Positions 3,982-19,501 of a stretch of 64,000 nt of DNA are shown in pieces; the first letter of the stretch is position 1, and each line of letters starts with the position of its first letter. The DNA lies in NCBI GenBank assembly GCA_029881795.1, contig JAOULX010000001.1, positions 186,001 through 250,000 on the forward strand. The letters are read 5' to 3'. Under the pieces are notes generated by a model. That model searched no databases. It was given only the letters and a program-made list of their open reading frames with translations, and had not been told where the DNA came from. The stretch is from Gammaproteobacteria bacterium. GTDB lineage: Bacteria > Pseudomonadota > Gammaproteobacteria > SZUA-229. Made by a program: the position numbers and the translations under genes.

Positions 3982-3994
3982 GGTGGGTATATGT

Positions 3995-4169: not shown

Positions 4170-5426
4170 ATGGCTACTAAGCACCATGTAACCCCGATGC
4201 TCGACGAATTAGAAAACGGCCCATGGCCTTCTTTTATTTCGGGCTTCAAACGTCTGCGTGATGATCACCCGGATGCTCGTATTAACGGTTTGGCTAACGG
4301 CCTGCTGGGTCAGTTAGAGCATTCTTACGAAACTCGTAAAGGTTACTGGAAAGGCGGTACTGTATCTGTTTTCGGTTACGGTGGCGGTATCATTCCACGT
4401 TTCTCAGAAGTTGGTAATGCGTTTGTGGAGTCGAAAGAATTCCATACTGTACGTGTTCAGCCGCCTGCATCTAACTTTTACTCAACTGATATGTTGCGTC
4501 AGTTAGGTGATTCTTGGGAGAAGCACGGTTCTGGTCTGGTTACTTTCCACGGACAGACAGGTAACATTATGTTCATCGGTACTGATACTTCACGTATCCA
4601 GCACTTCTTTGATGAAATCAATGAGTACGGTTTTGATTTAGGTGGTGCGGGTCCATGCGTACGTACTGCAATGTCTTGTATCGGTTCTGCGCGTTGTGAA
4701 ATGTCTTGCTTCAATGAGCAAGCTGCACACCGTCACCTGGTAAACAACTTCACTGATGATGTTCACCGTCCTGCATTACCTTACAAATTCAAATTCAAAT
4801 TCTCCGGTTGCCCTAACGACTGTCAGAATGCTATCGAGCGTGCGGATTTCGCAGTGATCGGTACATGGCGTGATGATATGCGTGTTGACCAGGCAGAATT
4901 TAAAGCAGCAATCGAGAAGAAAGGTCGTCAATATATTATTGATAACGTAATTACTCGTTGCCCTACTAATGCACTGGCTTTAAACGACGATGATACCATC
5001 GCTGTTGATAACCGTAACTGCGTTCGTTGTATGCATTGCTTGAACGTTCTTCCTAAAGCTTTAGGTGTTGGTGAAGATCGTGGTGTTACTATCCTGGTTG
5101 GTGGTAAGCGTACACTGAAAATTGGTGACCTGATGGGTACAGTTGTTGTTCCTTTCATGAAGCTGCGTACTGAAGAAGATTTCGAGCAGATCGTTGAGAT
5201 GGCAGAAGAAATCGTTGATTTCTGGGCTGAGAATGGTCTTGAACACGAACGTACTGGTGAAATGATCGAGCGTATCGGTCTGGTTAACTTCCTCGAAGGC
5301 ATCGGTATTGATGTTGATCCGAATATGGTTAGCAACCCACGTCAAAGTTCATACATTCGTATGGATGGTTGGGATGAGGCTGCTGTTGAGTGGTTCGAGA
5401 AGAAAGCTGAAAAAGCAGCTGGTTAA
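4170..5426 (+). CDS. dsrA: Reverse-type dissimilatory sulfite reductase subunit alpha (DsrA)
   Basis: 418 residues, the usual length. With DsrB it forms the alpha2-beta2 siroheme enzyme that oxidises DsrC-bound sulfur to sulfite in the cytoplasm. Siroheme/[4Fe-4S] ligands are visible as C170-x5-C176 and C214-x3-C218 (SGCPNDCQN). An inserted ferredoxin domain follows, with C264 and the trio C284, C287, C290. AAGGAG lies 7 bases before the ATG. It is the first gene of the long dsr operon. Codons are strongly biased to CGT, GGT and GTT, typical of a highly expressed gene. The whole-operon context (dsrEFH, dsrL) identifies the oxidative rather than the sulfate-reducing type. Confidence 0.98.
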   Translation: MATKHHVTPMLDELENGPWPSFISGFKRLRDDHPDARINGLANGLLGQLEHSYETRKGYWKGGTVSVFGYGGGIIPRFSEVGNAFVESKEFHTVRVQPPASNFYSTDMLRQLGDSWEKHGSGLVTFHGQTGNIMFIGTDTSRIQHFFDEINEYGFDLGGAGPCVRTAMSCIGSARCEMSCFNEQAAHRHLVNNFTDDVHRPALPYKFKFKFSGCPNDCQNAIERADFAVIGTWRDDMRVDQAEFKAAIEKKGRQYIIDNVITRCPTNALALNDDDTIAVDNRNCVRCMHCLNVLPKALGVGEDRGVTILVGGKRTLKIGDLMGTVVVPFMKLRTEEDFEQIVEMAEEIVDFWAENGLEHERTGEMIERIGLVNFLEGIGIDVDPNMVSNPRQSSYIRMDGWDEAAVEWFEKKAEKAAG

Positions 5427-5449
5427 TTAATTTATTTATTTTTGTATCT

Positions 5450-5475
5450 AAGGTGGCCGCACTGGCGGCTGCCTT
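5450..5475 (+). other. Intercistronic hairpin dsrA-dsrB
   Basis: AAGGTGGCCGC, a 4-nt loop ACTG, then GCGGCTGCCTT: an 11-bp stem with two imperfect pairs and no T-run. It looks like an mRNA-stabilising or processing element rather than a terminator. Confidence 0.5.
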
Positions 5476-5499
5476 ATTCATAAATTTGAGGAAGATACG

Positions 5500-6576
5500 A
5501 TGGCTTTAGAAGATATGAGACCACCTATTGAGACCGGTTGTCCTGACGGTTTTCAATACATGCATCCGATGATGCGCAGAAACTTTGGTCTGTGGGCTTA
5601 TCACGAAGATCCACAGCCGGGCGTTTTGTTACACGTTGCTAAGAGCGGTGAAAAAGTTTGGACTGTTCGCGCGGGTACTCAGCGTATTCTTGATATTTTC
5701 ACACTGCGCAAATTGTGTGATATCGGTGATCAGCAAGCTGACGGTTATGTTCACTTTACTATCCGTTCAAACATCGAATACTTTGTAACTGAAGAAGCTA
5801 AAGTACAGCCGCTGGTTGATGCTTTAAATGAAGCGGGCTTCATTGTTGGTGGTACGCGTAACTCAGTTGCGATGATGTCACACACTCAGGGTTGGTTGCA
5901 CTGCGATATCCCTGGTACTGATGCATCTGGTGTTGTTAAGGCGATGATGGATGAGCTGATTACTGAGTTTAAAGAGTGGAACATGCCTAACCGTGTTCAC
6001 TTAACGACTTCATGTTGTCAGATTAACTGTGGTGGTCAGGGTGACATCGCAATTAACGTACAGCACACTAAGCCACCTAAGATCAATCATGATCTGGTTG
6101 CTAACGTATGTGAGCGTCCATCAGTTGTTGCGCGTTGCCCGGTTGCTGCGATTCGTCCTGCACTGGTTAACGGTAAGCCATCTCTGGAAGTTGATGAGAA
6201 GAAATGTATCTGTTGTGGTGCTTGTTTCCCTCCTTGTCCTCCAATGATGATTAATGATGCTGAGCACTCTAAGCTGGCAGTCTGGGTTGGTGGTAATCAC
6301 TCAAATGCGCGTGGTAAACCGACTTTCCAGAAACTGGTTGCTGCTGGTATTCCAAATAATCCTCCACGCTGGCCTGAAGCGACTGCGGTTGTTAAGAATA
6401 TTCTTAATGCCTATAAAGCTGATGCTCGTGACTGGGAACGTGTTGGTGAGTGGGTTGAGCGTATTGGCTGGCCACGTTTCTTTGAAATCACTAACCTGCC
6501 TTTCACTAAGTACCATGTGGATACTTGGAAAGGTGCACGTAACAGCTTAAACGCTTCTACGCATATCCGTTTCTAA
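5500..6576 (+). CDS. dsrB: Reverse-type dissimilatory sulfite reductase subunit beta (DsrB)
   Basis: 358 residues, normal length. It is the catalytic partner of DsrA and carries the functional siroheme in this family. Cysteines in LTTSCCQINCGGQGD (C172, C173, C177) match the siroheme-cluster region. A ferredoxin motif follows (C236, C239, C242, C246 within KKCICCGACFPPCPP). It starts 73 bp after dsrA with GAGGAAG before the ATG. Codon bias is the same as in dsrA. The dsrE gene follows after 15 bp. Confidence 0.98.
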   Translation: MALEDMRPPIETGCPDGFQYMHPMMRRNFGLWAYHEDPQPGVLLHVAKSGEKVWTVRAGTQRILDIFTLRKLCDIGDQQADGYVHFTIRSNIEYFVTEEAKVQPLVDALNEAGFIVGGTRNSVAMMSHTQGWLHCDIPGTDASGVVKAMMDELITEFKEWNMPNRVHLTTSCCQINCGGQGDIAINVQHTKPPKINHDLVANVCERPSVVARCPVAAIRPALVNGKPSLEVDEKKCICCGACFPPCPPMMINDAEHSKLAVWVGGNHSNARGKPTFQKLVAAGIPNNPPRWPEATAVVKNILNAYKADARDWERVGEWVERIGWPRFFEITNLPFTKYHVDTWKGARNSLNASTHIRF

Positions 6577-6591
6577 GATAGGTTTTTAGAT

Positions 6592-6984
6592 ATGAAATTT
6601 GGTATACAGGTAAATGAAGGTCCTTATACCCATGAGGCTTCTGTAACAGCGATTAACTTTGTTAAGTCGGCTGTTGCAAAAGGCCATGAGGTGTTTCGAG
6701 TGTTCTTCTATCATGATGGTGTTAATAACGGTACTCGTTATGCAACGCCACCGCAGGATGATATTAATATCCAGCAGACATGGTCTAATCTGGCGAAAGA
6801 GCACAACATAGATTTAGTTATCTGTGTTGCAGCTGCTCAGCGTCGTGGCCTGGCTGATGATGGTGAACAAGAACGTAATAAACTTGATGGTAATAACATC
6901 ATGGACGGTTTCCGTATTTCTGGCTTGGGTCAGTTAATCGAAGCTGGCATTGAATGTGACCGTCTGGTAGTTTTCGGCGACTAA
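6592..6984 (+). CDS. dsrE: Sulfurtransferase subunit DsrE
   Basis: 130 residues. DsrE is the active subunit of the DsrE2F2H2 hexamer, which carries sulfur on one cysteine and passes it to DsrC. The conserved cysteine is C78 (IDLVICVAAAQRRG), the same position as in A. vinosum DsrE, and marks this as the oxidiser-type protein and not TusD of tRNA thiolation. It starts 15 bp after dsrB and is cytoplasmic. Confidence 0.96.
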   Translation: MKFGIQVNEGPYTHEASVTAINFVKSAVAKGHEVFRVFFYHDGVNNGTRYATPPQDDINIQQTWSNLAKEHNIDLVICVAAAQRRGLADDGEQERNKLDGNNIMDGFRISGLGQLIEAGIECDRLVVFGD

Positions 6985-6999
6985 AAAAGGGTCTTTGTA

Positions 7000-7407
7000 A
7001 TGTCTAACGTAAAGAAATTTATGTATATCAACAACAAGGCTCCTTACGGCACGATTTACGCGTGGGAGTCTCTGGAAGTTGTTTTGATTGGTGCTGCTTT
7101 TGATCAGGATGTTAGTCTGATGTTCACTGGTGACGGTGTTTATCAGTTAATGAAAGGTCAGGATACTAAAGAAGTTGGCATCAAAAACTTTTCACCAACT
7201 TATGCGGCTTTGGGTGACTACGATATCAACAAGATCTATGTTGAAAAAGAGTCTCTGGATGCACGTGGTTTGACAGTTGATGATCTGATGCACCTGGTTT
7301 GGGAAGATGAAGACGAAGATTGGGCTGAAAAAGACTCAATCAGAGTTGTGACTTCTGCTGAACTGGCTGAAATCCTTGATCAACAAGACGTAGTATTGAG
7401 CTTCTAG
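7000..7407 (+). CDS. dsrF: DsrF subunit of DsrEFH sulfurtransferase
   Basis: 135 residues, DsrE/DsrF-like fold (N-terminal MYINNKAPYGTIYAWESLE, central GDGVYQLMKGQDT). It contains no cysteine, which fits DsrF as a structural subunit of the hexamer; the sulfur-binding cysteines are in DsrE and DsrH. It is 15 bp after dsrE and 10 bp before dsrH, and so co-translated with both. Confidence 0.95.
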   Translation: MSNVKKFMYINNKAPYGTIYAWESLEVVLIGAAFDQDVSLMFTGDGVYQLMKGQDTKEVGIKNFSPTYAALGDYDINKIYVEKESLDARGLTVDDLMHLVWEDEDEDWAEKDSIRVVTSAELAEILDQQDVVLSF

Positions 7408-7417
7408 GAGATTTGAG

Positions 7418-7726
7418 ATGTCTATTTTACACACAGTAAATAAATCGCCTTTAGATCGTACTACTCTGAAGAGTTGTCTGAACCTTGCAGTTAAAGGTGC
7501 TTCAGTTCTTCTGATCGAAGACGGTGTTTATGGTGCAGTATCTGGTGCTGAAAGCACACAGATGGTTCAAGATGCAATGGGCGATGTAGCAGTTTATGTG
7601 CTTGGTCCAGACTTAAAGGCACGTGGTGTTGATGAGTCGCGCTTAATTGACGGCGTTAAAGTTGTTGATTATGACGGTTTTGTTGATCTGACAACAGACA
7701 ATGACACTGTAAGTGCTTGGGTATAA
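7418..7726 (+). CDS. dsrH: DsrH subunit of DsrEFH sulfurtransferase
   Basis: 102 residues, small DsrH/TusB-like protein. The conserved C20 (LKSCLNLAVKGASVLLIEDG) matches the redox-active cysteine reported for A. vinosum DsrH. Together with E and F it forms the ring that hands sulfur to DsrC. The ribosome site is AGGAG just after the dsrF stop. Confidence 0.95.
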   Translation: MSILHTVNKSPLDRTTLKSCLNLAVKGASVLLIEDGVYGAVSGAESTQMVQDAMGDVAVYVLGPDLKARGVDESRLIDGVKVVDYDGFVDLTTDNDTVSAWV

Positions 7727-7769
7727 TTTTTTTAGTATTTAAATTAGCGTTACCGTAGAGGAAATAATC

Positions 7770-8105
7770 ATGGCTGCTATTGAATTAGATGGTAAAAGTT
7801 ACGAAGTTGACGAAGAAGGTTATCTGTTAGATCTGAACCAGTGGGTTCCTGGTCTGGCTGATATCATGGCTAAAGACGAAGATGCTGTTCTGACTGACGC
7901 GCACTGGGAAGTTATTAACTTCTTACGTGAGTACTATGAAGAGTATCAGATTGCTCCTGCAGTACGTGTACTGACTAAAGCGATCGGTAAAAAATTAGGT
8001 AAAGACAAAGGCAACAGCAAGTACCTGTACGAGTTGTTCCCTTACGGTCCTGGTAAGCAAGCATGTAAATATGCGGGTCTGCCAAAGCCAACTGGTTGCG
8101 TATAA
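7770..8105 (+). CDS. dsrC: DsrC, sulfur-carrier substrate protein of DsrAB
   Basis: 111 residues. DsrC carries substrate sulfur as a persulfide or trisulfide between DsrEFH, DsrAB and DsrK. The C-terminal arm has both essential cysteines: C99 (GKQACKYAG) and penultimate C110 (PTGCV), 11 residues apart as in true DsrC. The KYLYELFPYGPGKQ signature is present. GAGGAAAT precedes the ATG. A strong hairpin terminator follows, so dsrC and upstream genes may be made in excess over dsrM onward. Compare the cysteine-less paralogue at 18722. Confidence 0.98.
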   Translation: MAAIELDGKSYEVDEEGYLLDLNQWVPGLADIMAKDEDAVLTDAHWEVINFLREYYEEYQIAPAVRVLTKAIGKKLGKDKGNSKYLYELFPYGPGKQACKYAGLPKPTGCV

Positions 8106-8115
8106 TCAGTTAGGT

Positions 8116-8148
8116 AATGGAGGGGGCTGTTGCCTCCTCCATTTTTAT
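8116..8148 (+). terminator. Terminator/attenuator between dsrC and dsrM
   Basis: Stem AATGGAGG-GGGC, loop TGTT, GCCT-CCTCCATT, about 12 bp with one G-U pair, then TTT and an AT-rich tail. It sits inside the operon, so partial termination is expected, favouring dsrA-dsrC transcripts. Confidence 0.75.
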
Positions 8149-8180
8149 TTGTTTTTTATTTCAAATAGCAAGGTTTAAAC

Positions 8181-8930
8181 ATGTCAGGCTTTATTGCAGC
8201 ATTGTTGTGGGTTGGCTTAGTTGTATTTGTGGGTTTTACAGCGCGTAAAATCAGACAATACTGGAAAACACCTGCACCACTTAAAATACCAACGACTCCT
8301 GCTCCTGTTACACAAACGGGTGTTGTTTTCCGTATGGCACGTGAAGTTGTGCTGTTTGAGAGTTTGTTTAAATCGAATAAATGGATCTGGGTTTTTGGCT
8401 GGATGTTCCATTTAGGTCTGTTACTGGCATTCTTCCGTCACTTGCGTTATGTGGTTAGTCCGGAGAATTTCATGTGGCCAGTGATCAGTAATGTCATCGT
8501 TCAGAGTTTTGGTCAGTATGCTGGCTTCGCGATGGTTGCGGGTTTGTTTGGTTTGCTGGCGCGTCGTATTGTTGTAGAGCGTATTCGTTACATATCGTCT
8601 CCTTCAGATTATTTAATGTTATTGATGCTGATTGTTATCGGTGTCAGTGGTTTAGTGATGAGCTTCGTCTCTCACATTGATGTTGTCCAATTAAAAATGT
8701 TTGTGATGGGTTTATTTGGTTTTGATTTCCAGAACTTACCAGAAAGCGGTGCGCTACTCATTCACCTGCTGTTGGTTGTTGTGTTATTGCTGATCTTTCC
8801 GTTCAGTAAATTATTGCACGCACCGGGTGTGTTCTTTAGTCCGACTCGTAACCAGATTGATAATCCACGTGAGAAACGTCATCTGGCTCCATGGGCTGCT
8901 GAAAAATACAACGATCACGTAGACAAGTAA
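8181..8930 (+). CDS. dsrM: DsrM, cytochrome b membrane subunit of DsrMKJOP
   Basis: 249 residues with about five membrane helices, NarI-like fold. Candidate haem b histidines lie in MFHLGLLLAFFRHLRY and near MSFVSHIDVVQ and LLIHLLLVVV. DsrM pairs with DsrK to exchange electrons between the quinone pool and cytoplasmic DsrC. It starts 75 bp after dsrC, behind the hairpin. The dsrK gene follows 46 bp downstream. Confidence 0.95.
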   Translation: MSGFIAALLWVGLVVFVGFTARKIRQYWKTPAPLKIPTTPAPVTQTGVVFRMAREVVLFESLFKSNKWIWVFGWMFHLGLLLAFFRHLRYVVSPENFMWPVISNVIVQSFGQYAGFAMVAGLFGLLARRIVVERIRYISSPSDYLMLLMLIVIGVSGLVMSFVSHIDVVQLKMFVMGLFGFDFQNLPESGALLIHLLLVVVLLLIFPFSKLLHAPGVFFSPTRNQIDNPREKRHLAPWAAEKYNDHVDK

Positions 8931-8976
8931 TTCTGCGTAATAACTGATAACGATTACTAAATCTAGGAAGTAAGTT

Positions 8977-10512
8977 GTGGCTGATTTCGAAACACCAGAA
9001 ATTAAAGAATTTATAGGCATTCCTGCACTGCAGGAAGGCTCTATGGCGCATAGCTCGCCTTTCATTGCAAAACCAGATCATCAGGAATCGTTAGGTTTTC
9101 CGGGTGAGCTGGTTGAAAACTGGCAACAGGTTGCGCTTGAAAAAATGGATGATCTGCGAACACGTTATCGTTCATTCCAGGTGTTCCTAGATTCTTGTGT
9201 TAAATGCGGTGCCTGTACTGATAAATGTCATTACTTCTTGGGTACTGCTGATCCAAAAAATATGCCGGTTGCGCGTCAGGATTTACTGCGTAAAGTTTAT
9301 CGTCGTTACTTCACTGTTGCAGGTAAGTACTTTCCTAAACTGGTTGGTGCTGCAGATTTAACAGAAGAAGTGTTGGATGAGTGGTATAGCTATTTCCACC
9401 AGTGCTCACAGTGTCGTCGTTGTTCAGTGTTTTGCCCATATGGCATTGATACTGCAGAAATATCAATGGCTGCCCGTGAAATTATGGACGCGGTTGGTAA
9501 GGGTCAGAAATACTGTAACGAAATTATCGGTAAAGTTCACACAATCGGTAACAACTTGGGTCTGCCTGGTAAAGCATTGGCAAATGTTCTTGAAGGTCTT
9601 GAAGAAGATGTTGAGGATGATACCGGTGTTGCAGTTAAATTCCCGCTGGATGTGAAAGGCGCTGATATCTTACTGGTTACACCTTCAGCCGATTTCTTTG
9701 CAGAACCACACATTGATGGTCTGATTGGTTACGCAAAAGTATTCCATGAAACAGGTGCTAGCTGGACATTAAGTACCACTGCGTCAGAAGCCGGTAACTT
9801 CGGTATGTTCATCGGTTCATACGAGAACATGCGTCGTGTTTCTATGCGTATTCGTGATGCTGCTAAAGAGCTAGGTGTTAAACGCATTATCTTTGGTGAG
9901 TGTGGTCATGCATGGCGTATCGCTTACAGCTTCCTCAATACTCTGTGTGGTCCTTTTGATTTCTTAGATCAGAATTATCCAATTCCTCAGCACATCCTTG
10001 AGTACACATGGGGTGAGTTGGAGAAAGGTACTCTACGTATCAATAAAGAAGAAAATGATCACATGACACTGACATTCCACGATTCCTGTAATGTGGCGCG
10101 TGGTTCACGTATGGGTGATTACCCTGGTGGTCAGTTTGATTATCCGCGTAATGTTATTAAAGCAGTATGTAATAACTACGTAGACATGGATCCTAAAACA
10201 ACGAAAGAAGCAACTTTCTGCTGTGGTGGCGGTGGTGGTCTTCTGACTGATGATTTAATGGAAATCCGTGTTAAGGGTGTTCTGCCTCGTGCAACAGCTC
10301 TGAAGAGTGTTGTTGAAAATGAAGGCGTTACCCACATGGCAGCGATTTGTGCAATTTGTAAGAGTCAGTTCACAAAGACGTTACCTTATTACGGTTTCAC
10401 TATGGATCAGATAGTGAGCGTACATCAATTAGTTAGTGAAGCGCTGGTCATGAAAGGTTCTGAGCAAGAAGCAGAGCTTGATGGTACTGACGGCGACGAC
10501 ACCGAAGAATAA
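8977..10512 (+). CDS. dsrK: DsrK, HdrD-like iron-sulfur catalytic subunit
   Basis: 511 residues, GTG start with AGGAAG upstream. Two [4Fe-4S] motifs come first (C74, C77, C80, C84 and C143, C146, C149, C153). Heterodisulfide-reductase-type CCG elements follow: GECGH at C309, C371 (DSCNVARG), C415-C416 (CCGGGGG) and C458/C461. This is the site thought to act on the DsrC trisulfide or disulfide. No signal peptide, so it faces the cytoplasm and is bound to DsrM. The C-terminal tail is acidic. Confidence 0.97.
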   Translation: MADFETPEIKEFIGIPALQEGSMAHSSPFIAKPDHQESLGFPGELVENWQQVALEKMDDLRTRYRSFQVFLDSCVKCGACTDKCHYFLGTADPKNMPVARQDLLRKVYRRYFTVAGKYFPKLVGAADLTEEVLDEWYSYFHQCSQCRRCSVFCPYGIDTAEISMAAREIMDAVGKGQKYCNEIIGKVHTIGNNLGLPGKALANVLEGLEEDVEDDTGVAVKFPLDVKGADILLVTPSADFFAEPHIDGLIGYAKVFHETGASWTLSTTASEAGNFGMFIGSYENMRRVSMRIRDAAKELGVKRIIFGECGHAWRIAYSFLNTLCGPFDFLDQNYPIPQHILEYTWGELEKGTLRINKEENDHMTLTFHDSCNVARGSRMGDYPGGQFDYPRNVIKAVCNNYVDMDPKTTKEATFCCGGGGGLLTDDLMEIRVKGVLPRATALKSVVENEGVTHMAAICAICKSQFTKTLPYYGFTMDQIVSVHQLVSEALVMKGSEQEAELDGTDGDDTEE

Positions 10513-10552
10513 ACATATTATTGTAATATAGATTACATCTGGAGATATACGA

Positions 10553-12508
10553 ATGGCTACTTCTAAAGACGAGATGCAAAACGGTTTAACTTTCCGCCGT
10601 TTTGAAGATGGTGACCACGAATGGGGTTCAATGCATGACAAAATCTTTAATGAGGATACGACATACAAATGCCCTACTTATGTTCACCGTACACCACCTT
10701 GTCAGGGTTCATGCCCTTCTGGTGAAGATATTCGTGGCTGGTTAGATATCGTTCGCGGTATCGAAAAGCCGGTTGGTGATGTGAGCTGGCAGGAATATGC
10801 ATTCCAGCGTTCTACCACTGCTAATCCGTTCCCTGCGATGATGGGTCGTGTTTGTCCAGCTCCTTGCCAGGAAGGTTGTAACCGTAATCAGGTTGAAGAT
10901 TTTGTTGGTATCAACTCGGTTGAGCAATTTATTGGTGATACGGCATTTGCTGAAGGTTTCAAATTTGCAGCGCCTGCATGTGGTGATAAAAAAGTAGCGA
11001 TTATTGGTGGTGGTCCTGCCGGTATGGCAGCAGCGTATCAGTTACGTCTGAAAGGTATTGGTTCTACCATTTTTGATGATCACGCCGAATTGGGTGGCAT
11101 GATGCGTTACGGTATCCCTGGTTACCGTACTCCTCGTGCGCAACTTGATCACGAGTGTAACCGTATCGTTAATATGGGTAACATTGAATTAAAAATGAAC
11201 ACCCGTGTTGGTAAAGACGTTGCTGTTGCTGATCTTGAAAAAGAATACGATGCTGTTTTATGGGCATTAGGTTGTAAGACTGGCCGTGGTTTATTCCTTG
11301 AAGATTTCGAAGCAACGCCAAACTGTGTTACTGCGGTTGATTTCCTTGAGCAGTTTAACAAAGGCGAAATGAAATACACGGCTAACAAAGTATTGTGTGT
11401 TGGTGGTGGTGATACTTCTATCGATGTGGTTTCAGTATCACGTCGTATCGGTACCTTAAAAGATTTACAAGAAAACCCAGAAGATTCAGCAACTGGTGTA
11501 ACTAAGCATGGTGATGTGGCTGATGGCGACAAGAAAGCATGTGATAGCGTTGTATTAACAGCTTTATTCGCACAGGATCAAATGACGGCAGCAGAGCACG
11601 AAGTTCAGGACGCACTGAAAGAAGGTGTGACGATCATGAACGAGGTAATGCCTGTTGAGATCATTAAAGATGCAAACGGTCGTGCAACTGCTTTGAAACT
11701 GGTAGACAGCAAGTTCGAAGGTAATGCACCTGTCGCAGTTGAAGGTGGTAAAGAGTATGTCGTTGAATGTGATCTGATTGTTTCTGCAATCGGTCAGACT
11801 GGTGACATGACAGGTGTTGAAGATTTCGATAACGGTCGCGGCCTGATTGATTCTGACAAGAACTTCCAGGTGCCAGGTAAAGAAGGTCACTTCGTATGTG
11901 GTGATATTATTCGCCCACACCTATTAACGACTGCAATTGGTCAGGCTTCTAAAGCTGCTGACAGCATCGAAGCATTCATCAACAAAGTTGAAATGTCTAA
12001 GCGTCCTAAGGTTGATGTACATCACTTTAGCCTGCAAACCAAGCTTGATGAAGTGGGTAAAACACCATCGCGTTACAATGCCAATGAAGGTGATTTGCGC
12101 GGTACTTCTGAAGCTAAGTTCGCTATCCATAACTACGAAGACCGTTCCGGTTCACAAGTGATCTCAACAGATCAAATGTTCCTTGGTCACTTTACGCATA
12201 CTCCTCGTAACCTGCGTACCGAAGATGTGCCAAATTCTGATCAGGTATTAGGTCATTTCGCAGAGCGTATGAACAGTCTTGATGAGGCTACTGCGCAGGC
12301 AGAAGCTGATCGTTGCATGAGCTGTGGTATGTGTTTTGAGTGTGATAACTGTGTTATCTACTGCCCACAGGACGCCGTCTTTAAAGTTAATAAAGCAGAA
12401 GCGTCAACAGGTCGTTATGTCGATACTGACTATGCAAAATGCGTTGGTTGTCATATCTGTTCTGATGTATGTCCTACTGGTTACATCGACATGGCTCTGG
12501 GCGAATAA
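10553..12508 (+). CDS. dsrL: DsrL, NAD(P)H:acceptor iron-sulfur flavoprotein
   Basis: 651 residues, GltD-like oxidoreductase. An N-terminal cluster domain has C40/C50/C54 and C101, C105, C109. The FAD site is IIGGGPAGMAAA (about 151-160), and a second nucleotide site (VLCVGGGDTSIDVV) lies near 285. The C-terminal ferredoxin part, from C588, has two cluster motifs (CMSCGMCFECDNC and CVGCHICSDVCP). DsrL associates with DsrAB and moves electrons from sulfur oxidation to NAD+. The full C-terminal ferredoxin domain and its presence with rDsrAB fit the oxidiser-type DsrL. It lies between dsrK and dsrJ as in A. vinosum. Confidence 0.97.
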   Translation: MATSKDEMQNGLTFRRFEDGDHEWGSMHDKIFNEDTTYKCPTYVHRTPPCQGSCPSGEDIRGWLDIVRGIEKPVGDVSWQEYAFQRSTTANPFPAMMGRVCPAPCQEGCNRNQVEDFVGINSVEQFIGDTAFAEGFKFAAPACGDKKVAIIGGGPAGMAAAYQLRLKGIGSTIFDDHAELGGMMRYGIPGYRTPRAQLDHECNRIVNMGNIELKMNTRVGKDVAVADLEKEYDAVLWALGCKTGRGLFLEDFEATPNCVTAVDFLEQFNKGEMKYTANKVLCVGGGDTSIDVVSVSRRIGTLKDLQENPEDSATGVTKHGDVADGDKKACDSVVLTALFAQDQMTAAEHEVQDALKEGVTIMNEVMPVEIIKDANGRATALKLVDSKFEGNAPVAVEGGKEYVVECDLIVSAIGQTGDMTGVEDFDNGRGLIDSDKNFQVPGKEGHFVCGDIIRPHLLTTAIGQASKAADSIEAFINKVEMSKRPKVDVHHFSLQTKLDEVGKTPSRYNANEGDLRGTSEAKFAIHNYEDRSGSQVISTDQMFLGHFTHTPRNLRTEDVPNSDQVLGHFAERMNSLDEATAQAEADRCMSCGMCFECDNCVIYCPQDAVFKVNKAEASTGRYVDTDYAKCVGCHICSDVCPTGYIDMALGE

Positions 12509-12551
12509 GCCGGACCTCTGACGACTTAGTAGTGAATTAGTGGAGAATATC

Positions 12552-13037
12552 ATGGTGTCATGGTTTCAAAAAAACCTTCAGAAGTCTATGCTGGCAGTGT
12601 CCGTACTACTGCTAGCTGGTTCTGTAAATGTTAATGCTGAAGTTGCAGCTCCTGTAGTGCCGAAAGGTAAAGGTGAGCAATGCGTTGAGCCAACTGGTGA
12701 AATGCGTAAAAATCACATGGAGATGTTAAAGCATCAGCGCGATGAAACCATGCACAATGGTATTCGTACTAAAAAGCACGCTTTAAAAGAGTGCATCTCT
12801 TGCCATGTTCAAGCTGATGATAAAGGTCAGGTTGCGCGTTTTGGTGAAGATGGTCACTTCTGTAGCTCTTGTCATAACTATGCCGGTGTTAATGTTGACT
12901 GCTTCCAGTGTCATGCTGATCGCCCGCAAGAGTTAATTGGTAAAGGCCACAAAATTAAACCGCATCACACAGCCAACTTCAACGACGCTTCAGTTAATAA
13001 AGAAGCGTTACAGGCTTTGTCGAAGGTATCAAAATGA
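12552..13037 (+). CDS. dsrJ: DsrJ, periplasmic triheme cytochrome c
   Basis: 161 residues from the ATG at 12552, which has GGAG 6 bases upstream. An ATG 12 bases earlier overlaps that site and is less likely. A signal peptide or membrane anchor covers about residues 11-29 (MLAVSVLLLAGSVNVNA). Three haem c motifs follow: CISCH 81-85, CSSCH 104-108, CFQCH 117-121. A separate C44 (EQCVEP) matches the cysteine known to ligate one haem in A. vinosum DsrJ. It is the periplasmic electron carrier of DsrMKJOP. The stop overlaps the dsrO start by 4 bp. Confidence 0.96.
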   Translation: MVSWFQKNLQKSMLAVSVLLLAGSVNVNAEVAAPVVPKGKGEQCVEPTGEMRKNHMEMLKHQRDETMHNGIRTKKHALKECISCHVQADDKGQVARFGEDGHFCSSCHNYAGVNVDCFQCHADRPQELIGKGHKIKPHHTANFNDASVNKEALQALSKVSK

Positions 13038-13771
13038 AAACAGACAATACAACTGATACTTCTAAACGTAAATTTCTAGGTGGTGCAGCAGCAGTCGCTG
13101 GTATCACAATCGCCCCTGGAGTATTGCTGCAAACTGTACAGGCTAAACCGGACGATCAGGCAGTCAGTAACAAGGTTCGCTGGGGCATGCTGATCGATAC
13201 TAATAAATGCGCAGATGGCTGTACTGACTGTGTAACTGCTTGTAATTCAGAGCATGGCTTAGCCGGTCATGATCGTCCAGAAACTGATACGCAGTACATT
13301 CGTAAAGTAACTTTAAAAGACAAGCAAACCGGTCATGTCAAAACATTACCGGTTATGTGTCAGCATTGCGAGACTGCTCCTTGTGCGGATGTTTGTCCGA
13401 CAGGCGCATCGTTCAAACGTGAAGATGGCATTGTGTTGGTCGATAAACATATTTGTATTGGCTGTCGTTATTGCATGATGGCTTGTCCGTATAAAGCGCG
13501 TAGCTTTGTCCATGAAGATGTCTATGATCAGAAAGATCACACTCCACGTGGTAAGGGTACAGTCGAGTCTTGCACCATGTGTGTTCACAAAGTTGATAAA
13601 GGTGAAAACCCGGCTTGTGTAACTGCCTGTAATAAAGAACATAAAGCCATGTACTTTGGTGATCTTAATGACGCAAACAGCGAAATCTCAAAACGCCTTA
13701 AAGAACACGGCGGCAAACAGATTCGTGCGGACTTAGGTCTGAATCCTGGCGTACGTTACCAGGGCGTTTAA
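13034..13771 (+). CDS. dsrO: DsrO, periplasmic four-cluster ferredoxin
   Basis: 245 residues. Cysteine groups for several [4Fe-4S] clusters are visible: CADGCTDCVTAC, CQHCETAPCADVCPTGA, CIGCRYCMMACPYKA and CTMCVHK...CVTAC. The N-terminus looks like a Tat signal but reads SKRKFLGG, so the first arginine of the twin pair is lysine. The hydrophobic stretch is AAAVAGITIAPGVLL, with a likely cut after VQA. DsrO bridges DsrJ and DsrP in the membrane complex. Spacing to dsrP is 24 bp. Confidence 0.96.
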   Translation: MKTDNTTDTSKRKFLGGAAAVAGITIAPGVLLQTVQAKPDDQAVSNKVRWGMLIDTNKCADGCTDCVTACNSEHGLAGHDRPETDTQYIRKVTLKDKQTGHVKTLPVMCQHCETAPCADVCPTGASFKREDGIVLVDKHICIGCRYCMMACPYKARSFVHEDVYDQKDHTPRGKGTVESCTMCVHKVDKGENPACVTACNKEHKAMYFGDLNDANSEISKRLKEHGGKQIRADLGLNPGVRYQGV

Positions 13772-13795
13772 GATAAAAACGAGAGTTGATAGATC

Positions 13796-15004
13796 ATGAA
13801 ATTAATCAGATACGCTTCAATCGATGGAAACAGCAACGGCTACTGGGGCTTAATGGCGTTGTTCGCGGCATTTATACTGGCTGCGCTGGGTTCATCTTAT
13901 TTTATGGAACACAATGGTCACTATGTGACAGGTATGACTAACCAGATTGTCTGGGGCTTACCTCATGTATTTGCTGTATTTTTGATTGTAGCTGCTTCAG
14001 GCGCATTAAATGTTGCCTCAATCGCTTCAGTTTTCAATAAAAAAGCTTATAAGCCTTTAACACGTCTTTCTGCTTTACTAGCGATTGCGCTGTTAATGGG
14101 CGGACTGATTGTTCTGGTACTTGATCTGGGACGTCCTGATCGCTTGATTATTGCAGCAACGATTTATAATTTTAAATCTATCTTTGCCTGGAACATGATT
14201 CTGTATTCTGGTTTTATCGGAATCGTTGGTGTTTATCTGTGGACCATGATGGATGAAACTGTAAACAAATTTAATCGTATTGCCGGTATTTCTGCGTTTG
14301 TCTGGCGCTTGATGTTAACCACAGGTACTGGTTCTATTTTTGGTTTCCTGGTTGCTCGTCAGGGTTATGATGCCGCTATTATGGCTCCAATGTTTATCAT
14401 TATGTCATTTGCATTTGGTCTGGCATTTTTTATTCTGGTTATGTTTGCCACATACAATGGTACGGGGCGTGAATTGGGCGATGCGATTGTAAATCGTATG
14501 CGTAATTTGCTTGGTATTTTCGTCGCAGCGATTCTGTACTTCTTCCTGGTATTCCACTTAACAAATCTTTATGCAACAGAGCATCACGGTGTTGAAGCCT
14601 TTATTCTGCGAGATGGTGGTGTGTTTACAAATCTGTTCTGGATTGGTTCAATCATTATTGGCGGTGTCGTTCCTCTGTTGATGGTTTACGGTCCGTTTTG
14701 CAAAAAATCACGTAAAGCACTGGCTGTAGCCTCTGTACTGGTTATCATCGGTGGTCTGGCATCTATGTACGTTATTATTATTGGTGGTCAGGCATATCCA
14801 TTGCAATTATTCCCCGGCATGGAAGTTAGCAGCTCTTTCTTTGACGGTGTTGTAAATACCTATTCACCAACATTACCTGAGCTGATGTTAGGTCTGGGTG
14901 GTGTTGCTCTGAGTTTAATCATTGTTACTCTGGCTGTTAAAGCATTAGACCTACTGCCAGTTAGCCTGGCTGACTCTGTAGCTGATCCACACCACAAAGA
15001 TTAA
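13796..15004 (+). CDS. dsrP: DsrP, NrfD-family integral membrane subunit
   Basis: 402 residues with about ten membrane helices, NrfD/PsrC family (N-terminal helix after YWGLMALFAAFILAALGSSY; DLGRPDRLIIA is the conserved loop). It is the quinone-interacting subunit of DsrMKJOP. It is the last gene with the strong CGT/GGT codon bias; dsrN and later genes use more mixed codons. Confidence 0.96.
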   Translation: MKLIRYASIDGNSNGYWGLMALFAAFILAALGSSYFMEHNGHYVTGMTNQIVWGLPHVFAVFLIVAASGALNVASIASVFNKKAYKPLTRLSALLAIALLMGGLIVLVLDLGRPDRLIIAATIYNFKSIFAWNMILYSGFIGIVGVYLWTMMDETVNKFNRIAGISAFVWRLMLTTGTGSIFGFLVARQGYDAAIMAPMFIIMSFAFGLAFFILVMFATYNGTGRELGDAIVNRMRNLLGIFVAAILYFFLVFHLTNLYATEHHGVEAFILRDGGVFTNLFWIGSIIIGGVVPLLMVYGPFCKKSRKALAVASVLVIIGGLASMYVIIIGGQAYPLQLFPGMEVSSSFFDGVVNTYSPTLPELMLGLGGVALSLIIVTLAVKALDLLPVSLADSVADPHHKD

Positions 15005-15022
15005 CCTGAATTAGTCTCTGTC

Positions 15023-15049
15023 AGCTGTCGCTAAATCTTAGCGGCAGCT
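15023..15049 (+). other. Intercistronic hairpin dsrP-dsrN
   Basis: Arms AGCTGTCGCTAA and TTAGCGGCAGCT (one G-U pair) around a 3-nt loop, no T-run. It is a possible mRNA stability or processing element at the step from highly to weakly expressed genes. Confidence 0.5.
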
Positions 15050-15082
15050 TCTCTCAATTATCGTGTCCTAAGGTGGTTACAT

Positions 15083-16477
15083 TTGTCCCATCTTCTTATT
15101 TCAGCAGCCCATAAATCATCCGGCAAAACCACGATCAGTATTGGATTGTGTGCCGCTTTGACATCTGTTGGGAAAATTGTTCAGCCGTTTAAAAAAGGAC
15201 CGGATTACATTGACCCGTTGTGGCTTGGCAAAGCGACCGGCAGAGCCTGTCATAATCTTGATTTTTACACGATGGACCGGGATGAAATTAAAACTGTTTT
15301 TGTTGAGCAGTCACAGGCATCAGATCTGCAGCTTATTGAAGGTAATAAGGGTTTATACGATGGGCTTGAGCTCGATGGCAGTAACAGTAATGCCGCGCTA
15401 GCCAGTCTACTCGGTGCGCCGGTTGTGCTCGTTATCGATGCACGAGGAATGACCCGGGGAGTCGCGCCCTTGCTGCTGGGTTATCAGGCCTTCGATCGTG
15501 ATATCAGAATCGGCGGTGTGATCTTGAATCAGGTTGGCGGCTCACGACATGAATCGAAGCTACGAAATGTTATCGAACATTATACGGATATCAAAGTGCT
15601 GGGCGCGGTACACAGAGACGAAAGACTGAATATTGATGAGCGTCATCTCGGACTGATGCCGAGTAACGAATTTGAGCAAGTAACCGAAAAAATACAGTTG
15701 TTATCTGCTGCCGTCAAACAACAGGTTGATCTTGATCAGCTTTGCAATCTGGCAGACTCAGCGATGCCGGTGGAGCCAGATAATGTTACGGCAATTGATG
15801 CGCCCCTGTACGTTAACAAGCTTCGAATTGGTGTTGTTAAAAACGAAGCCTTTGGATTTTATTATCCCGGTGACTTACAGGCGTTTGAACGCTGCGGAGT
15901 GGAGCTGGTTGAAATCGACACTCTTGTTGAACCGGAACTGCCTGAGATTGATGGTTTATTTATTGGTGGCGGCTTTCCAGAAAGCCTGATGCAAGAGCTG
16001 GAAGCTAATCTTACGATGCGTAACAGCATAAAAACGGCGATAGATCAGGGCTTGCCTGCTTATGCTGAGTGTGGCGGGCTGATGTATCTAGCAGAAGAGA
16101 TAAACTGGCACGGTAAACGTGCAAAAATGGCCGGCGTTATCCGTGGCAAGATTACCATGCATAAAAAGCCACAGGGTCGTGGTTATGTTCAACTGCTAGC
16201 TACCGATGACTTTATCTGGCCAATTGAAAACTCGGAAAAAGCACATATGATTAGTGCGCATGAGTTTCATTATTCTTCACTGGATGGTCTGCCTGCTGAT
16301 GCGCGTTATGCCTATGAAGTAAAACGCGGGACCGGTATAACAGGCAAATTTGACGGTTACCAGTATAAAAACCTGCTTGCCTGTTACAGCCACATGCGTG
16401 ATAGCAGGCAAAATCACTGGGTCTCACGATTTGTACAATTTGTAAATAACTGCAAACAGCAGTCTGTTAAACAATGA
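15083..16477 (+). CDS. dsrN: DsrN, siroheme amidase (CbiA/CobB-like)
   Basis: 464 residues, TTG start with AAGGTGG upstream. N-terminal ATP-binding part: SAAHKSSGKTTISIGL P-loop and KKGPDYIDPLW. C-terminal class I glutamine amidotransferase part with nucleophile cysteine in YAECGGLMYL. It is homologous to cobyrinic acid a,c-diamide synthase. In dsr operons it is held to amidate siroheme for DsrAB. The rare TTG start and weaker codon bias fit low expression, as expected for a cofactor enzyme. Confidence 0.95.
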   Translation: MSHLLISAAHKSSGKTTISIGLCAALTSVGKIVQPFKKGPDYIDPLWLGKATGRACHNLDFYTMDRDEIKTVFVEQSQASDLQLIEGNKGLYDGLELDGSNSNAALASLLGAPVVLVIDARGMTRGVAPLLLGYQAFDRDIRIGGVILNQVGGSRHESKLRNVIEHYTDIKVLGAVHRDERLNIDERHLGLMPSNEFEQVTEKIQLLSAAVKQQVDLDQLCNLADSAMPVEPDNVTAIDAPLYVNKLRIGVVKNEAFGFYYPGDLQAFERCGVELVEIDTLVEPELPEIDGLFIGGGFPESLMQELEANLTMRNSIKTAIDQGLPAYAECGGLMYLAEEINWHGKRAKMAGVIRGKITMHKKPQGRGYVQLLATDDFIWPIENSEKAHMISAHEFHYSSLDGLPADARYAYEVKRGTGITGKFDGYQYKNLLACYSHMRDSRQNHWVSRFVQFVNNCKQQSVKQ

Positions 16478-16486
16478 GAGAAAGAC

Positions 16487-16795
16487 ATGATTACGATTAC
16501 AGAAGCAGCAGCCAGTCAGATTAAAGAATCGGCGAAACAGGGCAAGATAGAAGGTCTGGCATTGCGAGTTGCCTGTGCCAAGCAGGCGGATGGCAGCTTG
16601 CATTACGGTATGGGTTTTGATGAAAAAACAGAAGAAGACCAGATCTTTATTTCCAATGATATCGAACTCATCATCGCTCCGGTTAGTCTGACTTTGCTGA
16701 CCGGTACCGTACTTGATTTTGTTGAACTGGAAGAAGGCAAGCCCGACTTTATATTCCAGAACCCGAATGATCCAGATCACCAGCCTGCTCAGTAG
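16487..16795 (+). CDS. dsrR: DsrR, A-type (IscA-like) protein without cluster cysteines
   Basis: 102 residues. It has the IscA/SufA fold signature (ITITEAAASQIKESAKQG; GMGFDEK; SLTLLTGTVLDF). The C-terminal CxC of IscA is missing: the sequence after FIFQNPND has no cysteine. Only C30 is present. A. vinosum DsrR likewise lacks the Fe-S ligands and is needed for normal dsr expression, probably after transcription. It starts 9 bp after dsrN. Confidence 0.93.
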   Translation: MITITEAAASQIKESAKQGKIEGLALRVACAKQADGSLHYGMGFDEKTEEDQIFISNDIELIIAPVSLTLLTGTVLDFVELEEGKPDFIFQNPNDPDHQPAQ

Positions 16796-16813: not shown

Positions 16814-17782
16814 ATGACGAAAACAGTCACAACAGCGACAGAATTCTCGATGACGAATGAAAACCCGTTCGACCTTGATAATGCCGAGGCTTACCAAAAA
16901 TGGCGTGATCATAAGCTTGCCGGATATCCGCTGTCGTTACAGCAGCTGGTAGTGAAGATTGGGGATATCAGGGCAATCAGTGATCAGGAGCTAAAGGCAC
17001 TTAAGCGCGTCATTCGCCAGCACAATATGGTGGTGTATCAGCTGGCATCAGAGAGTCAGGCCAGTAAGGCCGAGATCAGGCAGTTTGCACGGCTGTTGGG
17101 GCTGGACAGAATCGATAATAATATCTGTTCGGATGAAGATAGCATCACCAGCTTACAGGTTTCAGACAGTGCTCAGAAGCGGATCTATATTCCTTATACT
17201 AATCGGCGCCTAAGCTGGCACGCCGATGGCTATTACAACCCGCTGGATAAACAGATTCGCGGCATGCTACTGCATTGTGTGCAGCCGGCTGTAAAAGGCG
17301 GTGAAAACATGCTGCTGGATCATGAAATGATCTATATCCAGCTGCGTGATGAAAATCCGGACTATATCCGTGCTCTGATGCATCCACAGGCAATGATTAT
17401 TCCGCCTAATAACGAAGGTGAGCAGGGTGATCAAATTCGCGGCGAGCAGGCCGGGCCGGTATTTTCACTTGAAAATGGCACAGCTAATCTCCATATGAGA
17501 TATTCGGCGCGAAGCCGTAATATCATCTGGCGCGATGACGTGAACACTAGCGCTGCAAGGGCTAAAATTACCGACTTATTGGATAGTAGCCCCTATATTT
17601 TGAGATATAGACTCGGCGCTGGTCAGGGTGTAATTTGTAATAATCTGTTGCATAATCGCACCTCTTTTGAAGACAGTGATGCTCAGCATCGGTTATTATA
17701 CCGGGCCCGTTTTTATGATCGGGTGGCGGATACCGCGATTGCAGGCATAATGAATCAGGTAAACGAAAATGTTATATCTTAG
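16814..17782 (+). CDS. TauD/TfdA-family Fe(II)/2-oxoglutarate dioxygenase
   Basis: 322 residues. The iron-binding facial triad is visible as H136-x-D138 (LSWHADGYY) and distal H280 (LLHNRTSFED), with a following arginine suited to 2-oxoglutarate. The family hydroxylates small organic substrates, often sulfonates or carnitine-type compounds. No transporter for such a substrate is next to it. It sits 18 bp after dsrR on the same strand, so it is probably co-transcribed with dsr. It is not part of the textbook dsr operon. Substrate unknown; a modification linked to sulfur chemistry is only a guess. Confidence 0.85.
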   Translation: MTKTVTTATEFSMTNENPFDLDNAEAYQKWRDHKLAGYPLSLQQLVVKIGDIRAISDQELKALKRVIRQHNMVVYQLASESQASKAEIRQFARLLGLDRIDNNICSDEDSITSLQVSDSAQKRIYIPYTNRRLSWHADGYYNPLDKQIRGMLLHCVQPAVKGGENMLLDHEMIYIQLRDENPDYIRALMHPQAMIIPPNNEGEQGDQIRGEQAGPVFSLENGTANLHMRYSARSRNIIWRDDVNTSAARAKITDLLDSSPYILRYRLGAGQGVICNNLLHNRTSFEDSDAQHRLLYRARFYDRVADTAIAGIMNQVNENVIS

Positions 17783-17789
17783 TGAAGTA

Positions 17790-17957
17790 ATGATGAAAAA
17801 CCACGATATGACGTCCTTTGCGGAGCTAAAAGAAGCCCTTAAAGGGGAGGCGCGTCAGGGTCAGATGTTCTTTGAAATGGACGTGAAACCCGGTTTTGAT
17901 GATACGCCGGCAGACTGGCAAGACCAATGTGAAGCCGCCTTCACCAGCAGAGATTAG
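17790..17957 (+). CDS. Small acidic ORF between dioxygenase and Cas6-like gene
   Basis: About 55 residues from one of two adjacent ATGs at 17790/17793, possibly 62 from 17769, overlapping the dioxygenase stop. Rich in acidic residues, with no membrane segment and one cysteine. I do not recognise it. Its stop is one base before the ATG of the Cas6-like gene, so translation of the two is probably coupled. The tight packing supports a real gene, but coding status is less sure than for its neighbours. Confidence 0.5.
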   Translation: MMKNHDMTSFAELKEALKGEARQGQMFFEMDVKPGFDDTPADWQDQCEAAFTSRD

Positions 17958-17958
17958 C

Positions 17959-18675
17959 ATGTTCTGGGATGAGGACGATAATAAAGGCCCTTATCAGGTA
18001 CCAGAAGACGTTGTTGATGTCGGCTTTAAAGTCATTAGCAAAGCCTTACCGCTGGAGCACGCGCACGAGTTATACACAGCGTTGCAGGGTGTATTGCCCT
18101 GGTTAAAAGATGAGGCCTTAATCGGCATACATCAAATTCACGGTGCGGAATCTGGCAATGGCTGGACCCGGCCTGAAGATAGTGACAATGAATTATTACA
18201 TTTGTCACGCAGAGCCCGTTTTTACATACGGACACCGGCGCACAGGCTGGATGAAATTAAGGCTTTAACCGGACAAATATTAGATATCGATGGCCACCGG
18301 CTGGAGCTGGGGTCATCAATTATTAAGCCGCTAAGCACGCAGTCTGAGCAATTTTCACGCTACGTGATTGTTGAGCAAGATGAAGAGCAAGAAGCGGACT
18401 TTCTCAAACGGGTGGTGACAGAGCTTAACCAGTTACTTGAGACCAAGATACGTAAGATTATGTGTGGAAAGCCCCACACGATCAGGCTACCAGACGAGAT
18501 CATCAGCACCCGCAGTATCATGGTGGCGGATCTGGATCCTGAGATTGCTGTGAAGTTACAACAGCAGGGCGTTGGCCGTGGTAGACAATATGGTTGTGGC
18601 CTGTTCTTACCACATAAAGGCATAAAGGCTGTCGGTGAAACGGAAGATAAAACCCATTTTACCGGTGCCCGATAG
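17959..18675 (+). CDS. Cas6/Cmx6-like protein in the dsr operon
   Basis: 238 residues from the ATG at 17959; a longer frame from 17896 would overlap the small ORF. The pattern follows the Cas6 family of the I-MYXAN (Cmx6) type. It has VDVGFKVISKALPLEHAHEL near the start (H34, H36), IGIHQIHG (H58, H61), LDIDGHRLELG in the middle, and a C-terminal glycine-rich loop GVGRGRQYGCG (204-214) that fits GhG-x5-GhG. True Cas6 cuts CRISPR precursor RNA. No repeat array or other cas gene is in the window, and the gene is packed between a dsr-linked dioxygenase and a DsrC paralogue. A recruited RNA-binding or RNA-processing role is inferred. Alternative: a RAMP-fold protein with no nuclease activity. Confidence 0.75.
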   Translation: MFWDEDDNKGPYQVPEDVVDVGFKVISKALPLEHAHELYTALQGVLPWLKDEALIGIHQIHGAESGNGWTRPEDSDNELLHLSRRARFYIRTPAHRLDEIKALTGQILDIDGHRLELGSSIIKPLSTQSEQFSRYVIVEQDEEQEADFLKRVVTELNQLLETKIRKIMCGKPHTIRLPDEIISTRSIMVADLDPEIAVKLQQQGVGRGRQYGCGLFLPHKGIKAVGETEDKTHFTGAR

Positions 18676-18721
18676 AGTTTTTAATTAAATTTGTATTAAC
18701 CATTTAAATCAGAGGTGATAT

Positions 18722-19036
18722 ATGAGCGTTGAAAAAACGGAGAACGGTTATCTAGTAAATGCTACTGACTGGACTAAAGAAATTGCTGAAGAAATCTTTG
18801 CTGAAGAGGGTATAAGCCCGACTCAGGAGCACTGGGATGTTATTGAGTACATGCGAGAGCAGGTTCTGGATGAAGGCGCAGAGCCAAATGAGCGTGGCAT
18901 TATGAAAGCAATGGCGAAGAAATGGGGTAAAAAATTGACCTCAAAGTATATGTACGAGTTATTCCCAATGATGCCATCAAAACAAGGCTTGAAAATTGGT
19001 GGATTACCACAGTCTACTCGTAAGGGCGGTTACTAA
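18722..19036 (+). CDS. Cysteine-less DsrC/TusE paralogue (RspA type)
   Basis: 104 residues. Clear DsrC fold: NGYLVNATDWTKEIAEEI, then SPTQEHWDVIEYMRE, then TSKYMYELFPMMPSKQGLK. Both sulfur-carrying cysteines are replaced: the position of C99 in DsrC is leucine, and the C-terminal TGCV is replaced by STRKGGY. There is no cysteine anywhere. Such forms have been named RspA (regulatory sulfur-related protein) and are thought to act by binding rather than sulfur transfer. DsrC has a helix-turn-helix-like surface, so a regulatory or competitor role is possible. AGAGGTGAT precedes the ATG; it is 46 bp after the Cas6-like gene. Confidence 0.88.
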   Translation: MSVEKTENGYLVNATDWTKEIAEEIFAEEGISPTQEHWDVIEYMREQVLDEGAEPNERGIMKAMAKKWGKKLTSKYMYELFPMMPSKQGLKIGGLPQSTRKGGY

Positions 19037-19045
19037 AACAGGCTC

Positions 19046-19201: not shown

Positions 19202-19217
19202 TACCCCTATTGGGATA
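19202..19217. promoter_or_regulatory. dsr-like inverted repeat before the small gene
   Basis: TACCCCTATTGGGATA: arms TACCCC and GGGATA around 4 bp, centred at 19209.5. It resembles the palindrome before dsrA. TACCCCT also fits the NarL heptamer TACYYMT. The centre is 30.5 bp before the first base of a perfect TATAAT, the same offset as at dsrA. Confidence 0.6.
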
Positions 19218-19239
19218 AAGGAGCCGCTGATTATTGTGT

Positions 19240-19245: not shown

Positions 19246-19297
19246 CTGCTGATTAGTATCGAATTTAGTTATCCAATCCACGATAAAGGTGATGGAA

Positions 19298-19501
19298 ATG
19301 AGCGACAAGCAAGAAATGATCAAGAAAATGATCGAAATGCAGAAAAAATTCCAACAGTATGAAACTGCGAATGGTGTTGATCCACAAGATTACTTCACAC
19401 CAGAAAGTGGCCATGAACTTGACGGTTACCGTCAGGAATATGCTGACTTAGCAGCAGCAGTTAACGCTGCAGCTCATGCTGAAGTAGGTTCTAAGCCTTA
19501 A
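19298..19501 (+). CDS. Small charged cytoplasmic protein, dsr-linked
   Basis: 67 residues from ATG 19298 (MSDKQEMIKKMIEMQKKFQQ), with AAGGTGA 6 bases upstream. Starts at 19289 or 19292 are possible but would place the ribosome site inside the gene. A helical, lysine/methionine-rich N-terminus is followed by GVDPQDYFTPESGHELDGYR. No cysteine and no membrane segment. I recall similar small proteins in other sulfur oxidisers but know no function. It has its own promoter with a dsr-like repeat and a strong terminator, so it is an abundant single-gene unit likely co-regulated with dsr. Confidence 0.8.
   Translation: MSDKQEMIKKMIEMQKKFQQYETANGVDPQDYFTPESGHELDGYRQEYADLAAAVNAAAHAEVGSKP

Follow-up and report, generated by a model that had tools for sequence, protein, structure and literature searches.

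A Cas6-family protein outside CRISPR accompanies the reverse Dsr sulfur oxidation genes of gammaproteobacteria

Here we show that a Cas6-family protein free of any CRISPR system is a near-universal companion of the reverse Dsr (rDsr) pathway in gammaproteobacteria. The protein is encoded within a 64,000-nucleotide stretch of gammaproteobacterial DNA (hereafter the window) by an open reading frame at 17959-18675 on the forward strand, giving a product of 238 residues. It belongs to a cassette with the order TauD-type dioxygenase, 62-aa protein, Cas6, DsrC2 and 70-aa protein. Its family and fold, its standing as a single clade, its co-occurrence with dsrA, its place in the cassette, its retention and its lack of association with CRISPR are each directly supported by the data below. 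The features of the locus are as follows, with the basis of each in brackets.

3965..3985, no strand: palindrome TATCCCATATGGGATA upstream of dsrA, common to the family (loci comparison)
4170..16795, + strand: dsrABEFHCMKLJOPNR operon, the partner system (gene calls)
16814..17782, + strand: TauD-family Fe(II)/2-oxoglutarate dioxygenase (dsrQ-like) that heads the cassette (PF02668, residues, gene order)
17769..17957, + strand: sORF62, a 62-aa acidic conserved protein (same-position homologues in most loci)
17959..18675, + strand: Cas6-family protein outside CRISPR (PF09559), 238 aa (profiles, fold, residue census, tree)
18013..18618, + strand: Cas6 domain, residues 19-220 (PF09559 match, counted from the ORF start)
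18058-18060, + strand: His34 codon of Cas6 (counted from the ORF start)
18568-18600, + strand: glycine loop of Cas6, residues 204-214 (counted from the ORF start)
18722..19036, + strand: DsrC2, a DsrC/TusE-family paralogue of 104 aa that ends in RKGGY (PF04358)
19202..19220, no strand: palindrome TACCCCTATTGGGATA before sORF70, of the type found before dsrA (loci comparison)
19289..19501, + strand: sORF70, a 70-aa conserved acidic protein (homologues; the ATG at 19298 is the aligned start)

The genes are tightly packed on the dsr strand with gaps of 46 bp or less, as a preliminary description of this DNA had stated and as the measured spacings confirm: 18 bp separate dsrR from the dioxygenase gene, the latter overlaps the 62-aa ORF by 14 bp, and gaps of 1 bp and 46 bp lie before and behind Cas6. 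Two further genes also trail the cassette in many loci, coding for a 224-aa oxygenase-like protein (putative PKHD-type; 19663-20337, - strand) and a 110-aa protein (20520-20852, + strand), and the whole block including both seems to have moved together in the window's genus. Further away, the gene at 39045-39686 (+ strand) is a homologue of a 195-aa family whose genes adjoin the cassette at 27 of 80 loci, and at betaproteobacteria-like loci as well.

The 238-aa protein is genuinely homologous to Cas6 and a member of the Cas6 protein family. PF09559 matches residues 19-220 with 188.7 bits (cut-off 26.7; E 1.4e-55), the NCBIfam equivalog TIGR02807 (cas6_cmx6, type I-MYXAN) gives 117.9 bits and is above its cut-off of 98.85, and PADLOC models concur on the assignment. 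The glycine loop GhG-x5-GhG reads G204-V-G206-RGRQY-G212-C-G214. An AlphaFold model based on 40 homologues (pLDDT 88, pTM 0.83) has the tandem ferredoxin-like Cas6 fold with the C-terminal glycine loop, and its best match among solved structures is 8fcj, a Cas6 from a type I-B CRISPR transposon, with TM values of 0.75/0.82 and a Z of 24.5 across 196 residues; other Cas6 structures gave Z values of 8-16. The profile search and the superposition had both been proposed as checks in the preliminary description, and the Cas6 fold and glycine loop that it had read at residues 204-214 are borne out by the ORF, by both profiles and by 8fcj. Its mention of the Cmx6 histidine regions holds for H34, which is kept, but not for the P-x-(L/V)-H histidine, which is replaced (residue 50 is a lysine). 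The protein thus shares with the Cas6 of type I-MYXAN/I-B CRISPR systems (Cmx6; PF09559, TIGR02807; for example the PmcCAST Cas6 of 8fcj) the fold and the glycine loop as well as R91, R134 and a D-H motif before helix 1 that contains H34. A shared Cas6 fold by itself proves no function. We note that TIGR02807, an equivalog, passes a non-CRISPR protein, which probably places a misleading CRISPR label on dsr loci in public genomes; our results correct this database annotation, in which the TIGR02807 label stands for CRISPR.

Judged by genome context the protein is no CRISPR Cas6. It is encoded by the single PF09559 gene of its genome (2.93 Mb, 97.5% complete), where profile searches detected no Cas1, no Cas7/DevR and, for Cas3, nothing over the family cut-off, with generic helicases only below it. 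The cassette contains no other cas genes at the window or at related loci. A repeat scan that recovered the array beside a CRISPR-linked locus used as control (L146) detected nothing resembling a CRISPR array, either in the window or at the related loci, in agreement with the earlier statement that the window holds neither array nor cas gene. Among 369 gammaproteobacterial genomes Cas1 is present in 50 of the 118 that have this Cas6 and in 85 of the 251 others (p 0.13), and the two are not associated. The TIGR02807 label of type I-MYXAN Cas6/Cmx6 would fit a protein that works in trans for a CRISPR system located far away or is the decaying remnant of one. This explanation is already nearly refuted and we consider it extremely improbable: the missing cas genes together with the lack of Cas1 association led us to reject service in trans, the proteins form one clade with fixed dsr neighbours, and conservation of Cas6 in more than 100 genomes argues against decay. 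Cas proteins with a role outside immunity are known from Myxococcus, where DevR and DevS, the Cas7 and Cas5 of the same MYXAN subtype, are used in development. These lie in a CRISPR-cas operon, whereas here a lone Cas6 is found across a whole metabolic guild.

The link to sulfur oxidation was evident from a survey of the same 369 genomes, some of which are incomplete and whose related members are not independent: 118 of them have a PF09559 gene and 119 a true DsrA, with an overlap of 111 genomes (odds ratio 482, p 7e-75). Of the 15 mismatches several were looked at more closely, and most of these resembled contig breaks. In one genome (G176) the dioxygenase gene and the 62-aa ORF stand at a contig end where Cas6 would come, in another (G259) the contig stops just upstream of dsrA, and in two more the cassette is adjoined by dsrN and dsrR (G368) or by a dsrA fragment (G369). 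Cas6 and dsrA lie on one contig within 20 kb of each other in 82 genomes and are divergent in 81 of these, at 0.7-4.5 kb from Cas6 to dsrA. The lone non-divergent case is the window's own genome, with the cassette behind dsrR; the same arrangement is seen in the sister species (L028, L061), and a position within the dsr operon is found in this genus only. A phylum-wide sample contained five genomes of the class with dsrA, four of which belong to a betaproteobacteria-like group by inferred taxonomy; Cas6 was present in all five, and in none of the 47 genomes with dsrA from outside the class. The dioxygenase, the 62-aa gene, Cas6 and DsrC2 are all retained in five genomes of 1.0-1.1 Mb. The neighbourhood survey called for earlier found a linkage that is nearly universal in gammaproteobacterial rDsr genomes, and these counts support the idea that a sulfur oxidation locus has recruited a Cas6 fold from CRISPR. 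Co-occurrence, linkage and retention in very small genomes are strong comparative evidence that Cas6 has been selected for a role either within the reverse Dsr pathway or closely tied to it.

Much of the sulfur oxidation in the sea and in sediments is carried out by reverse-Dsr gammaproteobacteria, small-genome lineages among them, and a gene present alongside dsrA in 111 of the 119 genomes sampled carries no label but that of a stray CRISPR gene. We found no report of a link between Cas6 and dsr in the open literature searched. Our data show that a Cas6 can move out of immunity and take up a place in a core metabolic locus, and they point to Cas6 as a missing part of the rDsr pathway that is open to direct test. 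Cultured carriers of the Cas6 gene include Thiothrix, Thiohalobacter thiocyanaticus and Thioalkalivibrio denitrificans.

Compared with its CRISPR relatives the dsr-linked protein has kept some of its features and changed others. In the tree the dsr-linked sequences group in a single clade, apart from nine CRISPR-linked ones (support 100/99). Glycines 204, 206, 212 and 214 of the loop are each found in at least 132 of 134 dsr-linked sequences, R91 in all 134, R134 in 127 and H34 in 133, the exception being a single locus (L144). The P-x-(L/V)-H histidine, in contrast, occurs in none of the 134, against five of the seven plasmid-borne CRISPR-linked proteins that cover this part and also 8fcj. 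Conserved residues specific to the clade have been gained, namely W3 in an additional N-terminal tail (M-x-W-x-E/D), an NGWxRP loop, R85 and K166. Besides this tail and loop and the lost second histidine, the dsr-linked proteins differ from Cmx6 and 8fcj in having no CRISPR neighbours, in being fixed beside dsr genes and in their charge, with a pI of about 6 instead of 9-10 (mean 6.0 for 40 dsr-linked sequences, 9.2-10.2 for the nine CRISPR-linked ones). With this loss of basic charge their general RNA affinity is likely to be lower than that of the CRISPR-linked proteins. The catalytic histidine of Cas6e lies at the start of helix 1 (H20 in E. coli CasE, H26 in Thermus Cse3), and this is also where H34 sits. 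We do not claim that catalysis went with the P-x-L-H histidine, since H34 is kept at the helix-1 position, and by analogy with Cas6e the dsr-linked protein may have nuclease activity.

The partners of Cas6 give further indications of its role. DsrC2 belongs to the DsrC/TusE family, with a PF04358 match over its whole length (E 1.4e-27) and a conserved arm up to GLP, but it differs from that family in that both redox cysteines of the C-terminus (the penultimate and the second arm cysteine) are replaced and the KGGY end is invariant: all aligned cassette homologues end in RKGGY or GKGGY. Cysteine-poor members of the DsrC/TusE family have been called RspA. The window's own genome (G000) has six DsrC-family genes with differing cysteine patterns. 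The order Cas6-DsrC2 is the same in nearly all loci. In three genomes of one group (f110) the cassette is broken up and Cas6 stands alone, with an RKGGY paralogue still in the genome, at no more than about 8 kb from Cas6 in two of the three. Exceptions to the pairing do occur: one genome with Cas6 (G114) has no RKGGY paralogue among its DsrC-family genes. Some lineages have an extra 230-aa protein between the 62-aa protein and Cas6, and in betaproteobacteria-like loci a 75-aa ORF lies 5' of Cas6, the two forming one reading frame in L143. The 62-aa protein gives a confident helical model for which no PDB match was found.

The dioxygenase (PF02668, E 3.3e-18) has the metal triad HxD...H and the 2-oxoglutarate arginine, and H136xD138, H280 and R293/R297/R299 are at least 95% conserved among 58 homologues. 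It corresponds to dsrQ, a name in use for the tauD-like gene found upstream of dsrA (Lenk et al. 2012, cited in PMC7596348); the passage on dsrQ in PMC7596348 speaks of tauD only, with no mention of Cas6 or a DsrC paralogue. At four rDsr loci assigned by inference to alphaproteobacteria (L243-L246) the dioxygenase gene and small ORFs are likewise divergent from dsrA and directly followed by a siroheme synthase-like gene, and neither Cas6 nor DsrC2 was found beside dsrA there. Because these four loci have the dioxygenase and lack the other two, Cas6 and DsrC2 appear to be a gammaproteobacterial addition to an older dsrQ module. The siroheme synthase-like neighbour is a hint that the dioxygenase module concerns a Dsr cofactor. 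An intact dioxygenase active site and a member of the DsrC/TusE family beside Cas6 could also belong to a tRNA module, in which the Cas6-like protein would present tRNA to a TusE-like carrier and the dioxygenase, much as in TusE/MnmA thiolation, so that translation would be coupled to the flux of sulfur. We think this very unlikely, as DsrC2 has no cysteine for carrying sulfur and the alphaproteobacteria keep the dioxygenase without Cas6 or DsrC2.

Our preferred reading, to which we would give not quite an even chance, is that the CRISPR-free domesticated Cas6 and the cysteine-free DsrC paralogue act as an RNA-binding regulatory pair in the Dsr pathway. Cas6 would have been domesticated and fixed once, in the ancestor of the gammaproteobacterial reverse-Dsr sulfur oxidisers, and would work in this pathway jointly with the paralogue encoded next to it. 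Its fold would still make RNA contacts by way of the retained glycine loop and of Arg91, Arg134 and His34. DsrC2, predicted to keep the DsrC fold and arm and to be unable to carry sulfur, would link Cas6 to the Dsr machinery, and the two could form a regulatory ribonucleoprotein that binds and perhaps processes cellular RNA and in this way tunes the synthesis or the working of rDsr. The dioxygenase and both small proteins would be co-regulated accessories with a looser tie to Cas6. A bolder form of the proposal, in which Cas6 has become a permanent subunit of an energy-metabolism system and its ribonucleoprotein with the cysteine-free DsrC controls or senses sulfur oxidation via RNA, is possible but doubtful. 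If true, a CRISPR-derived regulator would have been fixed in a whole biogeochemical guild. The pI of 6.0 and the P-x-(L/V)-H histidine gone from 134 of 134 sequences speak against RNA binding, and the G114 exception against the pairing.

The same losses would suit a protein scaffold that has given up RNA, with Cas6 as adaptor for a DsrC paralogue that plugs into DsrAB arm-wise like DsrC and guards, matures or switches off the enzyme. The lost basic charge, the loss of one Cmx6 histidine, the gain of new conserved features (the W3 tail, the NGWxRP loop and K166) and a cysteine-free DsrC as partner all point in this direction, and the siroheme synthase-like gene that follows the alphaproteobacterial dioxygenase and small ORFs hints at cofactor or enzyme maturation. 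We nevertheless judge a scaffold unlikely, although still worth serious consideration, given that the RNA-contacting glycine loop and the shared arginines are almost perfectly kept.

The preliminary description had proposed that Cas6 binds or cuts the dsr mRNA. The hairpins that it had placed at about 5450, 8116 and 15023 are real and are conserved in a related species of the genus with changed sequences. Across gammaproteobacterial loci the dsrA/dsrB gap (window 5427-5499) has a mean z of -2.51 against shuffles (n=54) and the dsrC/dsrM gap (window 8106-8180) one of -3.25 (n=46), with the remaining dsr gaps near 0. Recognition or cutting of the hairpins in the dsrA/B, dsrC/M and dsrP/N gaps by Cas6, setting Dsr stoichiometry, would agree with their existence, their persistence in another species of the genus despite sequence change and their conservation across gammaproteobacteria. 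The hairpins cannot be taken as Cas6-specific: stems also occur in the dsrA/dsrB gap of alphaproteobacteria-type rDsr operons (L228-L232, n=5), and searches of the genomes with alphaproteobacterial dsr operons, and of the surroundings of their dsrA, yielded no member of the Cas6 family. Since stems occur there without Cas6, the dsr hairpins do not depend on it. The hairpins also have no evident sequence in common, the dsrC/M stems resemble partial terminators or stabilisers, and Cas6 is mostly encoded off the dsr transcript. A universal hairpin in the dsrA leader was likewise considered as a target and rejected, the structure signal there being weak (mean z just -0.51) with hairpins in several lineages. 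Neither leader nor mRNA hairpins thus give a Cas6-specific signal, the strong basic charge is lost as well, and we regard control of dsr stoichiometry by this route as improbable. The intergenic hairpins are possibly stability or attenuation elements.

Beside the cassette no conserved RNA was found across related loci, and Rfam gave no match in the window. A long inverted repeat at about 19040-19170, between DsrC2 and sORF70, was rejected as a conserved RNA: it is missing from the sister species (L028, L061), where the gap is 115 nt as opposed to 255 nt in the window, which identifies it as an insertion. It probably represents a small mobile or repetitive element, and the same gap holds similar hairpin insertions at four other loci (L012, L019, L025, L107).

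The gene for sORF70 has its own promoter region with the operator-like palindrome at 19202. A comparison that covered the L156-L174 and L001-L140 gaps showed that nearly all related loci have palindromes of the type TA(T/C)CCCAT-n-GGG(G)ATA both upstream of dsrA and upstream of sORF70; the sites in the window are 3965-3985, about 4000-4013 and 19202-19220. We take this type to resemble NarL heptamer pairs. The common palindrome suggests that one regulator may serve both dsr and the cassette. Genes for a GAF/histidine-kinase-like protein and a NarL/FixJ-like response regulator adjoin dsrA at 1527-3736 (- strand), and their products could read the putative operator.
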